From contig NC_018664.1 in assembly GCF_000299355.1 (NCBI RefSeq), forward strand, positions 2,526,380 to 2,590,379: 64,000 nucleotides of DNA, given 5' to 3'. A program made the translations under genes and the position numbers. The notes beneath the pieces are model-generated. The model saw nothing but the letters and a program-made list of their open reading frames with translations. It ran no database searches and was not told where the DNA came from. Source of the stretch: Gottschalkia acidurici 9a. Its GTDB lineage: Bacteria; Bacillota; Clostridia; Tissierellales; Gottschalkiaceae. The stretch's first letter is position 1. Every line of letters starts with the position of its first letter. Below, in pieces: positions 4,459 to 9,904 of the stretch.

Positions 4459-5256
4459 ATGTATAAAATAGGTTTTATTGGTTTAGGTAATATGGGATAT
4501 GCAATTGTTAAAGGTCTTCTCTCATCTGAAAAAGGCGAAAATATAGCTTTTTATGATATAGACAAATCAAAACAAGATAGTATAGTTAAAGAACTAGGTA
4601 TCGCCTTACGTCAAAGTAATGTTGATGTTGCTAAAAACTCTAAGTATATTATATTAGCTATAAAACCACAATTTTATAGTGAATGTTTGTCTGAAATAAA
4701 AGATTCTTTAGATGCTAATTCTGTAATAATAAGCATAGCACCTGGAATTACAATAGACAGCTTAAAAGATGTATTTGGTAAAAGTGCTAAAATAGTAAGA
4801 GTTATGCCTAATACCCCATCTCTAGTTTCTGAAGGTATGAGCGTACTATCATTTTCAAAAGATAATTTTAGTGAAGAAGAAACTGAAGATATAAAAAATA
4901 TTTTTAAATCTTGTGGTGAGATAGAGATTATAGAAGAAAAATTCATGGATGCCATAGTTCCTATCTCTGGCAGTTCACCTGCTTATATATATATGATGAT
5001 AGAAGCTTTAGCAGATGGTGGAGTACTTCTTGGATTACCTAGAAAACTATCATATAAATTAGCTGCTCAGTCAGTCTTAGGTTCTGCCAAAATGGTTTTA
5101 GAAACTGAGACTCATCCTGGTGAGCTTAAAGATGCTGTTTGTTCTCCTGGTGGAACTACAATAGAAGCAGTTGCAAAGCTTGAAGAAAAAGGATTTAGAA
5201 GTTCTATAATTGAAGCCATGATTTCTGCTTACGACAAGACAAAAAAATTAAAATAA
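4459..5256 (+). CDS. proC: Pyrroline-5-carboxylate reductase
   Basis: Catalyses NAD(P)H-dependent reduction of 1-pyrroline-5-carboxylate to L-proline, the last step of proline synthesis. The 265-aa length is standard. The N-terminal Rossmann motif is GFIGLGNMG (about residues 5-13); the C-terminal dimerisation/active-site region carries ISGSSPAYIYMMIEALADG and ELKDAVCSPGGTTIEAV, both diagnostic. The ribosome site is AAAGGAGGA. No other proline gene is adjacent, so 5-carboxylate must come from elsewhere (for example ornithine). Confidence 0.96.
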   Translation: MYKIGFIGLGNMGYAIVKGLLSSEKGENIAFYDIDKSKQDSIVKELGIALRQSNVDVAKNSKYIILAIKPQFYSECLSEIKDSLDANSVIISIAPGITIDSLKDVFGKSAKIVRVMPNTPSLVSEGMSVLSFSKDNFSEEETEDIKNIFKSCGEIEIIEEKFMDAIVPISGSSPAYIYMMIEALADGGVLLGLPRKLSYKLAAQSVLGSAKMVLETETHPGELKDAVCSPGGTTIEAVAKLEEKGFRSSIIEAMISAYDKTKKLK

Positions 5257-5283
5257 GCTAAGGGTTTTCCCTTAGCTTATTTT
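5250..5283. terminator. Bidirectional terminator between proC and yfcE-like gene
   Basis: A perfect 15-bp stem (5250-5264 with 5269-5283) closes a TTTT loop, with A-rich and T-rich flanks on the two sides. It overlaps the last codons of both convergent genes. Confidence 0.92.
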
Positions 5284-5817
5284 AATGGACTTTAGTATAT
5301 TCCCTTCTAGATCCTTAACTTCAAATAAATTGTTTTCTAATATCCCGTAAGAGTTAGGGTTATTTTCTTTTGGTAGTGTTATCGATCCCGGATTAAGTAC
5401 ATATATACCATTATATTTTTCTGCTAAAGGTACATGAGTGTGTCCATAAGCTAATATGTCTCCTTCACATATATTAGGTAGATTATCTTTATTGTATATG
5501 TGTCCATGAGTTATATATATTCTTTTTCCATTATAAAATAGAACTCCATAGTCAGCCATAATAGGATATTCTAGCATCATTTGGTCTACTTCACTATCAC
5601 AATTTCCTCTTACTGCAACTATTTTATCTTTATATTTATTTAGTAGTGATGCTACTTCCTTTGGGTTATAGTCTTTTGGAAGTGGATTTCTTGGTCCATG
5701 ATATAACGCATCTCCTAATATTACTATATATTGTGCATTTTCTTTCTCATATATATCTATGCCTTTTTCTAAATAGTGTATCGAACCATGTATATCTGAT
5801 AAAAATAATATTTTCAA
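5272..5817 (-). CDS. YfcE/MJ0936 family metallophosphodiesterase
   Basis: A 181-aa calcineurin-like phosphoesterase. All metal-binding blocks are present in order: SDIHGS (residue 7), GDALYHGPRNPLP, GNCDSEVD, THGH, GHTHVP and NPGSI. The HGPRNPLP segment is typical of YfcE-type enzymes, which hydrolyse phosphodiesters in vitro with an uncertain physiological substrate. The start is TTG at 5817, fixed by the strong site AGGGGGAG ten bases upstream. It lies 27 bp downstream of the helicase gene on the same strand and may be co-transcribed with it. Confidence 0.9.
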   Translation of the reverse strand: MKILFLSDIHGSIHYLEKGIDIYEKENAQYIVILGDALYHGPRNPLPKDYNPKEVASLLNKYKDKIVAVRGNCDSEVDQMMLEYPIMADYGVLFYNGKRIYITHGHIYNKDNLPNICEGDILAYGHTHVPLAEKYNGIYVLNPGSITLPKENNPNSYGILENNLFEVKDLEGNILKSIKIS

Positions 5818-5844: not shown

Positions 5845-8800
5845 TTAATTTTTTAAAGACTCTAGTTTCATTTTTATTTTTTCTACTTCTACCTGCTTAT
5901 TCTTCCACCAATCTCTGCTCCATATTCTATGGATTGTCCAACCTCTGCTTTCTAAAAATCTTTGTCTATATATGTCCCTTTCCCTAGCAGATTTAGAGCT
6001 ATGATACGTTGCACCATCACATTCTATTCCAAGTATATATTCAGATCTATCCTCATCATATATTGCCATGTCAATTCTATAGCTAGATGCTCCCACTTGA
6101 GTCTGAACTTTTAGTCCAATATTAACTAACGCCTCATATACTTCTTCTTCAAAAGGACTATCAAAGTGAATTATATCTTTTTGTGTTCTTTCTATAGTAT
6201 CTAGTGAGTATAATATATCTCTAGCTTCTTCTTTATTATCATTTGATACTGCTCTTACATACTGTAGATATTTTTTTAGTAGTATAGCACCTTTACTTAA
6301 GTTATCTACATAGCCCAGCTCTTCTGGTTCTATAGAAGTTATTACATATATTTTTTTCCTAGCTCTACTTATGGCAACATTTAGTCTGTTTTCTCCTGAT
6401 TTCATAGTGAGACTTCCAAAGTTTCTCACTACTCGTCCTTCTTCATTTGGTGCATATCCTATAGAAAATATAATTATATCTCTTTCATCACCTTGGACAT
6501 TTTCTATATTTTTTATAAAAATACCTTTATATTCATTTCCTTCTTTTCTTTCTAATTCTTTTCTATACACAGCTCCAAATTCTATATCTCTTAAAATTTC
6601 TCTATCTAGCATCTCTTCTATACACTCTTGTTGGCTAGAGTTAAAAGTAATAATACCTACAGTTTCGTTATTTTCCCTGTCTAACAGTATCTTTTTAATC
6701 AACTGTACTACTTCCTCAGCTTCTTTTATATTTTTCCTATCTATCCACTTTCCATCTATTTTTATTCTTTCTATAGGCGAGGAATACTGACTCTTATTTA
6801 TATTAGGAACTACTTCTATCTTTCCATTATAAAAAGCATAGTTTGAAAAATTTATAAGTTCCTCATACATAGATCTATAGTGATAGTTCAAAGTAACACT
6901 CTCATACTTATACTTTGCTAGTTCTAATAAACTTTTAACTTCTGTACTTATTTTAGAAATATACTTTTCATCATCTTCGATATATTCTTCATTGTCCATC
7001 TTTACTTGATATAAGTCATTCGGTTGTAACTGTTTATCGTCTCCTGCTATTACTACACTTTTAGCTCTGTATACAGAAGGTATACTATTCTCAATAAACA
7101 TTTGTGATGCTTCATCAAATATTACTACATCAAATATTCCTTCTTTTAAAGGTAATACACTTGATACTGCTTCTGGAGTTACCAACCAGCATGGTAGCAG
7201 ATTTAGAAGTCCACTGCTCTGAAATGTATGAATAAACTTTCTTAAACTCATTTTGTTTCTTTTTTTATCTACTTCGTATTTCATATCACTATAGTTAGTT
7301 CCATCTTCTATGTCATTATTTAGTTTATCTATGATGACCTCGGGAACTAACTTTCTTTTACTTTCTAATAAATTTTCTATTTTTACTTTGATTTCATCCG
7401 GATTATCTATTGAATTTAAAATTTCCTTATTTTCTAACTCTATATATTCTATATGCTTCAAATATATAGTATTTCTTATAGCTTTGGAAAGGTCGATATC
7501 TTCTTTATCATTCCATTCATATTCTTCCATACAAAATTTCATTAAAAGCTTTTCTTTATCAGAAAGTTTATCTTTTAAATAATCTAAAATTTTTATTTGC
7601 TCAAAGTCTGTAGATATTATACTTTGTATATCCTCAAGCAACTCTTTCCACTTATTATTTTTTAATATATTACTAGTTAAAAGTTCTAATAGGTCTTCAT
7701 TAAAATACTTTTCTAATATATATACTTCTTTAGTAAGTAGTTCTACAGTCTCTATGCTTTTTATATAACTTTCTATTTTTGATATTATTTCTTTTTTATT
7801 GCTAGTATAGCTTATATCATTAATACCAAATTCGCTTTTTATTTTTAATATCTCACTATTAATTTTAGCAGTCTCATCTATACACTCTATTATATTTTTT
7901 ATACTATATCCTTTTACTCTCTGCTTTAGTTCTCTTCTACTTTTCCAGTATCTAAGTGTCCATATTCTTTTTTTCTTAACTACCTTACTAAGCTGTAGTA
8001 GTTTATTCAAGTTTTTAGTATGCTTGTCATCTAAAAGATTACTAGTATTACTAATTAACTCTAAGTCCTCACTTAGCTTTTTAGAGAGGTAAGAGGTATC
8101 TATTTGTTTATCTTCTATTAAATTTTCAATATAAACTATACTACTATCCTTCAATTTCTCACCATTATATTCTTCTGCATATCTTTTTATTCTTTCCACA
8201 AGACTTATAATTCTATCTTTTTCTATTTCCTGAAGATCTCCAAATTTTTTTCTATTCTTTAATACTAAATTATTAGAGTCGTACTTTAAATATCTTGATA
8301 TTCGATCTATATTATTAAGTATTTCTTCAAGTTCTGTACTATTTATGTCTTTAAATTCATTAAAATTGTCACCTAATATCTCTATATAATATTTATATTT
8401 ATTTGTACTTTTAGTATATAACTGATTTAAAGTTAAACCAAAGCTAGTACTTTTGTTTAAAACATCTGATAGTTTCTCTAGTTTTTCTAACTCACTTTCT
8501 ATGTCTTGAGATACTTTATTAAACTGAATATTATACTTATCTCTAAAATATCTTTCTTGATTCTCTAATATACTATTAATCTTATTAAATAGTTTTTGTC
8601 TATCTGTATTAGGAGACTCTATATTTGCAACTCTATTGTCTAATTCTAGTTTTAGTAGTCTATTATATACAACATCTAGTGCAGCTTTTTTTTGAGACAC
8701 CATTAGTATCTTCTTACCTTTAGCTAAATTGTCTACTATTAGATTTACTATTACTTGTGACTTTCCAGTTCCAGGTGGACCATATATTACTAGTTCCTCA

Positions 8801-9732
8801 CTTTTTTCACTAACTATTATTGCTTTCTCCTGACTATAATCTAGTTCAGTTACAAAGTAGTTATTTTCTTGATTCACTCTAATTCTTTTTGATTCTTTAT
8901 TTTCTCTACTAAAGCTTTTTTCTCCAGTTCCTTTAGCATCATTATGAATTAAGTTGTTTATCAATCTATTACTGCTATTTCTGTTTATAAGTTCTATATA
9001 ATCATCATATATAGAGCTTGTTGAATTAGGAAATTGACCTATTACTATATTGTTTTTTAAAATAAGTTCTCCTAGTTCGTATGTTGAAGTGTTTGAGTTA
9101 TTTATCTCCTTAAATTCTTCTATGCACGATATATCATTTTCTTTATCTATAAATATTCCATTTTCAGATAAATACTCTGCTATCCAGTTCAGTATATCCA
9201 CATCTGTTAACTCTTCAAACTCTAGTTCAAAATCTCTAAGTTTTATTTCATTATATTTTTTAAAGCCCATTATAAATGTTTTATTTATATTTATATATTC
9301 ATCATTTATACTTTGTAAAAATACTTCATCATTTTCTATCTTTAAACTTACTGGAAAAAGTAGAAGAGGTGCTTTTACAAGCGTACCATCCTTAAATTTT
9401 CCTTCCACAAATGGATACCCTATACACAGATCATGGCTCCCTTTTTCTCTTTGAATAGAGTTGTTTTCCTTATAAAGTTTCTTTAAGTCTTCATAGAGTG
9501 CAGATATATTTTCGTCATAAGGTGGTGATAGTATCTTTATCTTTCCATCATATCTTTCTGTAAGTAGCTTTAGTAGTCTTTCACAAAAATTTTGCCCATT
9601 TGCCTTTTCTAATGACTTTAAATCAAAAGCTACTTTTTTATAAAGTTTTTTTAATAATAGTGTTCTATTTCTGGTGCTTATATTTATAAGTCTATCTCTG
9701 TATATAGACAACATATCTTGCAATCTTATCAC
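5845..9732 (-). CDS. DUF4011-type SF1 (Upf1-like) helicase with C-terminal PD-(D/E)XK/Vsr-like nuclease domain
   Basis: A ~1295-aa protein. The N-terminus (LSIYRDRLINISTRNRTL) is the DUF4011 start. Walker A (YGPPGTGKSQV, ~residue 314) and Walker B (VVIFDEASQM, ~872), GDDKQLQP (~895), NYHYRS (~948), and ENVQGDERD plus NVAISRARKK (~1090-1122) are SF1/Upf1-type helicase motifs; a long coiled-coil insertion separates A and B. The last ~110 residues hold IECDGATYHSS ... RERDIYRQRFLESRGW ... RIWSRDWW, typical of a Vsr/DUF559-like endonuclease. The GTG at 9732 lies inside the Shine-Dalgarno sequence AAGGTGAT, so translation more likely begins at TTG 9723. Proteins of this layout are suspected or reported anti-phage factors; that role here is inference. 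Its neighbours are housekeeping genes. Confidence 0.85.
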   Translation of the reverse strand: MIRLQDMLSIYRDRLINISTRNRTLLLKKLYKKVAFDLKSLEKANGQNFCERLLKLLTERYDGKIKILSPPYDENISALYEDLKKLYKENNSIQREKGSHDLCIGYPFVEGKFKDGTLVKAPLLLFPVSLKIENDEVFLQSINDEYININKTFIMGFKKYNEIKLRDFELEFEELTDVDILNWIAEYLSENGIFIDKENDISCIEEFKEINNSNTSTYELGELILKNNIVIGQFPNSTSSIYDDYIELINRNSSNRLINNLIHNDAKGTGEKSFSRENKESKRIRVNQENNYFVTELDYSQEKAIIVSEKSEELVIYGPPGTGKSQVIVNLIVDNLAKGKKILMVSQKKAALDVVYNRLLKLELDNRVANIESPNTDRQKLFNKINSILENQERYFRDKYNIQFNKVSQDIESELEKLEKLSDVLNKSTSFGLTLNQLYTKSTNKYKYYIEILGDNFNEFKDINSTELEEILNNIDRISRYLKYDSNNLVLKNRKKFGDLQEIEKDRIISLVERIKRYAEEYNGEKLKDSSIVYIENLIEDKQIDTSYLSKKLSEDLELISNTSNLLDDKHTKNLNKLLQLSKVVKKKRIWTLRYWKSRRELKQRVKGYSIKNIIECIDETAKINSEILKIKSEFGINDISYTSNKKEIISKIESYIKSIETVELLTKEVYILEKYFNEDLLELLTSNILKNNKWKELLEDIQSIISTDFEQIKILDYLKDKLSDKEKLLMKFCMEEYEWNDKEDIDLSKAIRNTIYLKHIEYIELENKEILNSIDNPDEIKVKIENLLESKRKLVPEVIIDKLNNDIEDGTNYSDMKYEVDKKRNKMSLRKFIHTFQSSGLLNLLPCWLVTPEAVSSVLPLKEGIFDVVIFDEASQMFIENSIPSVYRAKSVVIAGDDKQLQPNDLYQVKMDNEEYIEDDEKYISKISTEVKSLLELAKYKYESVTLNYHYRSMYEELINFSNYAFYNGKIEVVPNINKSQYSSPIERIKIDGKWIDRKNIKEAEEVVQLIKKILLDRENNETVGIITFNSSQQECIEEMLDREILRDIEFGAVYRKELERKEGNEYKGIFIKNIENVQGDERDIIIFSIGYAPNEEGRVVRNFGSLTMKSGENRLNVAISRARKKIYVITSIEPEELGYVDNLSKGAILLKKYLQYVRAVSNDNKEEARDILYSLDTIERTQKDIIHFDSPFEEEVYEALVNIGLKVQTQVGASSYRIDMAIYDEDRSEYILGIECDGATYHSSKSARERDIYRQRFLESRGWTIHRIWSRDWWKNKQVEVEKIKMKLESLKN

Positions 9733-9769
9733 CTTACTTTCTTTAACTAAAACTTATGTTCTTATCTTT

Positions 9770-9798
9770 ATTATATGATTAAACATTAGCTTTTACAA
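9770..9798 (-). promoter_or_regulatory. Sigma-A promoter of the helicase-nuclease gene
   Basis: On the minus strand, -35 TTGTAA (9793-9798) and -10 TATAAT (9770-9775) are separated by exactly 17 bp, about 40 bp upstream of the start codon. Confidence 0.75.
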
Positions 9799-9816: not shown

Positions 9817-9860
9817 ATAAAAAAACATCTATTAAAGTAATTACTTTAATAGATGTTTTT
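9817..9860 (-). terminator. Terminator of the liv operon
   Basis: A perfect 17-bp inverted repeat (9824-9840 with 9841-9857) with a T run on the minus strand (A run on the plus strand from 9819). It lies 45 bp after livF. Confidence 0.9.
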
Positions 9861-9904
9861 TATAAATATTATATTTTCATACGAAAAACTTTCACTTTAT
9901 CTAT

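Follow-up and report, generated by a model that had tools for sequence, protein, structure and literature searches.

A compact, stand-alone DUF4011 helicase-nuclease of Gottschalkia acidurici 9a as a probable single-gene defence protein

Overview

The window analysed here is a stretch of 64,000 nucleotides from the genome of Gottschalkia acidurici 9a (contig NC_018664.1, positions 2,526,380 to 2,590,379 of the forward strand). It carries a gene for an intact protein of about 1,292 amino acids (aa), with all catalytic motifs present, in which a superfamily 1 (SF1) helicase is joined to a nuclease. The protein is a short, stand-alone DUF4011-helicase-nuclease, a further member of an already known kind. 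Most probably it is a defence nuclease that acts as a single gene, of the DUF4011-SF1 helicase-MTES_1575 kind and in the neighbourhood of PDC-S37, Hhe and ProA, with a presumed effect against phage. This explanation is preferred because relatives are patchy in occurrence, often decayed, apparently move as single genes and lie in defence-rich surroundings, and because the protein resembles Hhe and ProA. It adds a compact branch (~1,240–1,310 aa; 39 full-length examples aligned) to a kind of defence protein with models of 1,550–1,900 positions, provides a smaller protein for asking how Upf1-like helicase-nucleases distinguish phage from host, and represents a clear case of a likely defence gene travelling alone. 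No experimental study of the short form was found in the literature searched, which is no proof that none exists.

Gene and protein architecture

The open reading frame (ORF) at 5845–9732 (−) of the initial annotation does exist and counts 1295 codons from a GTG at 9732, but the start is more likely the TTG at 9723 (gene at 5845–9723 (−), 1292 aa), since AAGGTGAT at 9735–9728, which overlaps the listed GTG when read off the window sequence, resembles its ribosome-binding site.

A Pfam scan finds DUF4011, AAA_11, AAA_12, the MTES_1575 restriction endonuclease (REase) and DUF559, every one above its cut-off. Domain positions refer to the 1292-aa protein and motif residues to the P0001 numbering, and all of the following features lie on the (−) strand. 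DUF4011 (PF13195) occupies residues 12–150 (9274–9690) with 33.3 bits against a gathering cut-off of 22.2, and a six-frame search gives a sole match in the genome, at 38.9 bits. AAA_11, the first RecA-like half, is found at residues 294–486 (8266–8844) by both Pfam and the predicted fold, and AAA_12, the second half, at residues 932–1130 (6334–6930). The MTES_1575 REase domain (PF18741), a Vsr-clan PD-(D/E)XK nuclease, follows at residues 1191–1286 (5866–6153) with 121.9 bits (cut-off 38.2), and the DUF559 match overlaps this domain, which bears out the Vsr/DUF559-like nuclease predicted at the C-terminus.

Walker A (GPPGTGKS, residues 318–325; 8758–8781) and Walker B (DEAS, residues 873–876; 7105–7116) are about 550 residues apart and enclose an insert of about 465 residues. 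Across 65 aligned sequences, both motifs, the other SF1 motif residues and D1221, E1237 and D1239 show conservation of at least 95%, and the window copy has all of them intact. The alignment comprises 63 of 80 fetched relative loci, the closest orthologue (genome G002, see below) and the window protein; the best frame of the other 17 loci falls outside 1200–1620 aa. Judging from the PD-(D/E)XK pattern, D1221 ... E1237-C-D1239 (6016–6072) form the putative active site of the nuclease. The motifs quoted in the initial annotation are all present, IECDG at 1236–1240, RERD at 1250–1253 and WSRDWW at 1271–1276.

The description of an SF1 helicase split by a long coiled-coil insert was also right, as the stretch between the RecA-like halves (about residues 378–845; 7198–8601) is almost wholly helical in an AlphaFold2 model, with a predicted local distance difference test score (pLDDT) below 50 at model residues 523–646. 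For residues 840–1295 the mean pLDDT is 82.9, the best PDB matches by Foldseek are Upf1-type helicases, and VIA-align against Upf1 (2xzl_A) gives Z 18.4 and a root-mean-square deviation (rmsd) of 4.3 over 274 residues. A model of the protein without its nuclease (pLDDT 70.6) matches IGHMBP2 (Z 21.4, rmsd 4.3, 406 residues), Dna2 (Z 20.7, rmsd 4.1, 408 residues) and again Upf1. These fold searches are dominated by helicase matches and barely probe the nuclease part; a sequence search of the PDB likewise yields 16 sequences with E no higher than 1 (the best at 4.6e-14), which match in the helicase stretches only. SF1 motifs and fold together place the protein among the Upf1-like SF1 helicases, and according to the models the motor belongs to the Upf1/DNA2 branch, which includes both RNA and DNA motors. 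It shares its motor fold with IGHMBP2, Upf1 and DNA2, while the long insert and the Vsr-clan nuclease are its own; TIGR00376 is not reached (77.8 bits, cut-off 348.9). The alignment range with IGHMBP2, given by its first and last residues, begins at residue 27 in model and chain alike, and DUF4011 probably substitutes for the oligonucleotide/oligosaccharide-binding (OB) fold and stalk (1B) region of Upf1-like helicases.

In two relatives a further domain follows the nuclease. The flavobacterial form (L081:9119–13501) carries a GreA/GreB C-terminal domain and a form from Nitrososphaeraceae (L078:9863–14365) a Schlafen AlbA_2 domain, a hint that RNA polymerase or nucleic acid may be sensed.

Comparison with known defence systems

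Such fusions had been said to occur among proposed anti-phage factors, and a PADLOC search agrees. The best defence model is PDC-S37, a single-gene phage-defence candidate (E 8e-179), followed by Hhe (2.7e-91), a name that reportedly originates with Gao and colleagues. Residues 637–1291 align to positions 713–1342 of the 1550 in the PDC-S37 model, together with a second stretch of unlisted extent, so that the protein, some 260 residues shorter than the model, matches along most of this profile when judged independently of PADLOC's own thresholds. A literature search under the name PDC-S37 found no paper. The likeness to Hhe consists of two matching stretches, the C-terminal one (806–1291) covering the second helicase half and the nuclease, and the NCBIfam title of the Hhe equivalog (NF042953, 1797 positions) names DUF4011. 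With ProA (NF058533, 1903 positions) there are three matching stretches (E 2.6e-180). Scores of 460.8 and 602.1 bits are far below the curated cut-offs of 2000 and 1500, respectively, and the protein is therefore best regarded as related to the anti-phage proteins Hhe and ProA without being an equivalog of either. 'Gao Hhe' is named in the available portion of PMC13249269; a literature search for ProA found nothing on an anti-phage protein.

Two further systems are similar in plan. According to the accessible text of PMC11090510, CnuH of the Type III-B CoCoNuTs is a UPF1-like SF1 helicase in which Walker A is followed by a helical insert and to which a Vsr-like nuclease is fused, a plan that the window protein shares. 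In contrast to the Type III-B operon, which includes McrB/McrC-like CnuB/CnuC and CnuA, the window gene is flanked by yfcE and a liv-type operon; no Sul7-like winged helix-turn-helix (wHTH) was identified in its protein, and DUF4011 goes unmentioned for CnuH in the part of PMC11090510 available. Membership in the CoCoNuTs is ruled out, as no partner genes are nearby. The MTES_1575 proteins, as presented in an excerpt of PMC3710099, are giant helicase-nucleases without modification genes and are proposed to attack invading DNA. They have in common with the window protein an SF-I helicase, the same Vsr REase domain and the lack of a modification gene, but their HEPN, transglutaminase and C-terminal wHTH (DUF3320) domains are not among the eight Pfam families that it matches.

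Relatives and gene movement

Outside its own lineage the gene is patchy and often broken. In the Bacillaceae (the family of G249, Neobacillus cucumis) it is present in 28 of 193 genomes at 1e-100. Fourteen of these copies are open and full-length, 2 are full-length with one stop, 10 are broken or partial and 2 are pieces located at the ends of contigs, states that were read by hand from a table, with contig ends checked for those 2. Within the class, 14 of 391 genomes drawn have the gene at 1e-100, G. acidurici included. Relatives sit at differing genomic places: across 81 loci (the 80 fetched relatives and G002), the gene's own family is found in 74 and the next commonest neighbour family in 10.

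The gene appears to move alone, because DNA similarity between relatives usually ends near the edges of the frame. In pairs at 80–99% DNA identity it usually ends 3–301 bp ahead of the frame and, on the 3' side, between 57 bp inside the frame and 273 bp past it; in L089/L103 and L090/L103 it stops 251 bp inside the frame. Exceptions are very close pairs (L057/L110, L074/L109/L079, L094/L099) and the rows of L064, which has a broken frame. L056 and L057 are 95% identical over the gene and 213 bp upstream. The most striking case is that of L086:7180–12136 and L087:6510–11470, from two genera and with unrelated flanks, which are 98.8% identical over the gene and about 300 bp on each side; L088 (Labilibaculum, another family) shows 90% DNA identity. 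The likeness of these three points to the recent transfer of one gene.

Neither a plasmid nor a phage origin was borne out. Matches occur in 516 plasmid records, of which only one spans 80% of the query (33% identical), and in 7 phage records, none of which spans that much.

In the marine Flavobacteriaceae loci L082, L084, L086 and L087, relatives of 1460 aa are found within rows of repeated sites like CAACACCGTATATAATTTATTGC, in one orientation and about 0.5–6 kb apart (10, 17, 5 and 12 sites, respectively). There are 47 such sites in 19 long-form loci, whereas shuffled controls average 0.4 and 35 loci from Bacillota and others contain 1. With the pattern used, most sites showed no paired second half. 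The rows look like gene cassette arrays of integron type (attC/CALIN).

Versions in the genus g97 (L167, L170–L188, L193–L199) are mostly 1250–1400 aa in length and occupy several loci, two of which are each common to two of the genomes examined.

Defence genes around the relatives

Of the 39 short forms, all but the window and G002 (37 loci) had their surroundings compared, using neighbours of 80–1000 aa. The near set holds at most two ORFs per flank of the gene (143 proteins), the far set up to four ORFs far from it at the same loci (138 proteins), and the control 138 proteins from 20 arbitrary regions, chosen by hand at round coordinates, of eight Bacillaceae genomes that also contain a homologue. 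At E ≤ 1e-15 the near, far and control sets match 110, 127 and 7 PADLOC models, respectively, these being counts of redundant models, which overstate the number of proteins. At 1e-60 the figures are 23, 23 and 0 (best control E 6.5e-30). The contrast is still large, despite the redundant models and the hand-chosen control. Among the matches listed, those near the gene include PbeA/PbeC, DndF/DndG, NERD+UvrD and PD-Lambda-1, and those further away JetA/JetD, DpdF, DndB/DndC, a type I methyltransferase and ThsB; matches of the DndA/SspA type may be ordinary cysteine desulfurases. The nearest genes are no richer in defence models than genes 7–10 kb off, so the signal is that of defence islands rather than of a fixed partner.

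History in the own lineage

Two of the four genomes of the family have the gene, including that of G. acidurici, and 10 of 249 genomes of the order do at E ≤ 1e-30, with a full-length orthologue in G. acidurici and G002 only. Universal presence at this locus, which had been named as a sign of a housekeeping repair role, is therefore not what is seen. G002 belongs to another genus, and its copy (L024:9992–13936) is the closest orthologue. The order helicase-nuclease, yfcE and, further on, proC, Nudix, MATE and MarR is common to both genomes, with two chemoreceptor-like genes separating yfcE from proC in G002. Identities of 58–59% for the helicase-nuclease, 71% for YfcE and 66% for ProC are as expected from common descent. 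In the third genus (G001) the helicase gene is absent, and yfcE comes after genes resembling those for YciI and NrdG/NrdD (names assigned by reading translations); in G003, yfcE is split across two contig ends and likewise comes after a YciI-like gene. Since G001 has yfcE in another gene context and no helicase, the gene has been gained or lost at the yfcE site within the family, and is stable where present. Most likely it was gained before the split of the two genera and then kept ahead of yfcE. Recent insertion is ruled out by the same position in G002 and an ordinary G+C content at third codon positions (GC3; 0.184 vs a mean of 0.183). Although not universal in family or order, the gene is thus no variable insertion within its own lineage, where it keeps one position in two genera. 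In a tree, the window protein and that of G002 cluster with a Sericytochromatia bin (support 100/99), apart from the Bacillaceae, a placement made uncertain by long branches and by the bin being metagenomic.

Proposed mechanism and alternative explanations

As a defence nuclease, the protein could work as follows. The Upf1/DNA2-like motor would load on exposed single strands of invading DNA, most likely the replicating DNA of a phage, and travel along the strand using ATP. The DUF4011 region and the long helical insert would be the sensing and gating part, and the C-terminal nuclease, held by a helical linker, would cut the strand while the motor runs. What we infer for this protein is that it is active, with DNA and not RNA as its substrate, that it is gated in this way and that it acts against phage, and DNA is favoured as the target because of the nuclease family and the match to Dna2.

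Defence directed at RNA is unlikely. The Upf1-like motor would then act on phage or damaged RNA, to be cut by the Vsr-like domain, and two observations agree with this: the solved relatives of the fold are mostly RNA helicases (Upf1, IGHMBP2, Sen1, senataxin, ZNFX1), and for CnuH, of the same plan, RNA targeting has been proposed (PMC11090510, text available in part). However, Dna2 fits equally well, the nuclease falls in the MTES_1575/DUF559 group, read as DNA-directed in the accessible part of PMC3710099, and no CoCoNuT partner adjoins the gene. A housekeeping role, as a repair or surveillance helicase-nuclease acting with YfcE, would suit a gene pair whose order and strand are constant across two genera and a window devoid of a defence island, but is improbable given that the gene is patchy and often broken, that yfcE is kept without it in G001, G003 and other genera of the order, and that no neighbour family occurs in more than 10 of the 81 loci. 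This lack of a recurring neighbour elsewhere rejects yfcE as a general functional partner. Very improbable is a split Type IV restriction system that needs a distant partner: the genome does contain a McrC-family gene with an adjacent upstream ORF (L142:8367–10488), possibly a McrBC-like pair, and CoCoNuTs pair such helicases with McrBC (PMC11090510, in the portion available), yet this pair lies about 437 kb away, and no neighbour family, these being partly named, recurs widely beside the relatives.

Several observations weigh against a defence nuclease. GC3 is ordinary, one position ahead of yfcE has been kept in two genera, and, the PADLOC models being redundant, the neighbourhood counts overstate how many proteins are involved. 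The window has no defence island, as had been stated: PADLOC on its 53 other ORFs yields three generic mads models only, two of which (mad2, mad3) also match the control protein set. Some DUF4011 proteins are core genes, such as that of P. aeruginosa, which forms the conserved right border of the defence hotspot cDHS1 (PMC10250203, as far as its text is available). In the genus g97, with genomes of 0.7–1.5 Mb, 48 of 81 species have the gene at 1e-60, partly at shared loci, and such frequency, together with persistence at one place, also fits a beneficial resident function. The proposal of single-gene defence thus stands on architecture, the match to candidate and known anti-phage families, non-universality and relatives in the Bacillota that are patchy, broken and mobile among defence genes, and is countered by the fixed position in the own lineage. 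A more far-reaching and tentative picture is that of a minimal, self-sufficient helicase-nuclease that might move between bacteria, and into a few bins of archaea, as a bare gene (promoter and frame, without transposase or island), might make use of cassette arrays of an integron-like kind in marine Bacteroidota, and in the lineage of G. acidurici might have become fixed, in one transcript with yfcE, as a resident gene of innate immunity.

Locus and transcription

The gene lies between housekeeping genes, as first described, with yfcE, proC, CitT, Nudix, MATE and MarR on one flank and an ATP-binding cassette (ABC) operon of the liv type on the other (the names MarR, MATE, Nudix and liv were assigned by reading translations). 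The next gene downstream, for a YfcE-type phosphodiesterase (5272–5817 (−)), also adjoins the orthologue in G002 (L024:13949–14503). Because the helicase-nuclease gene precedes yfcE on the same strand, by 27 bp in the window and by 12 bp in G002, it may be co-transcribed with this housekeeping gene. A promoter of its own, as claimed in the initial annotation, is plausible but unproven: the sigma-70-like site TTGTAA-17-TATAAT at 9798–9770 (9770–9798 (−)) agrees with the consensus in 10 of 12 positions, while promoter-like matches are not above chance (3 vs 2.5 expected). This site comes after an inverted repeat of 42 bp that contains runs of A and T (9820–9861, no strand assigned); the repeat, read off the sequence rather than scored by the promoter scan, is a possible terminator of the upstream liv-type operon. 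After yfcE, a terminator-like hairpin with a T run (5247–5286 (−)) may mark the end of a helicase-yfcE transcript.

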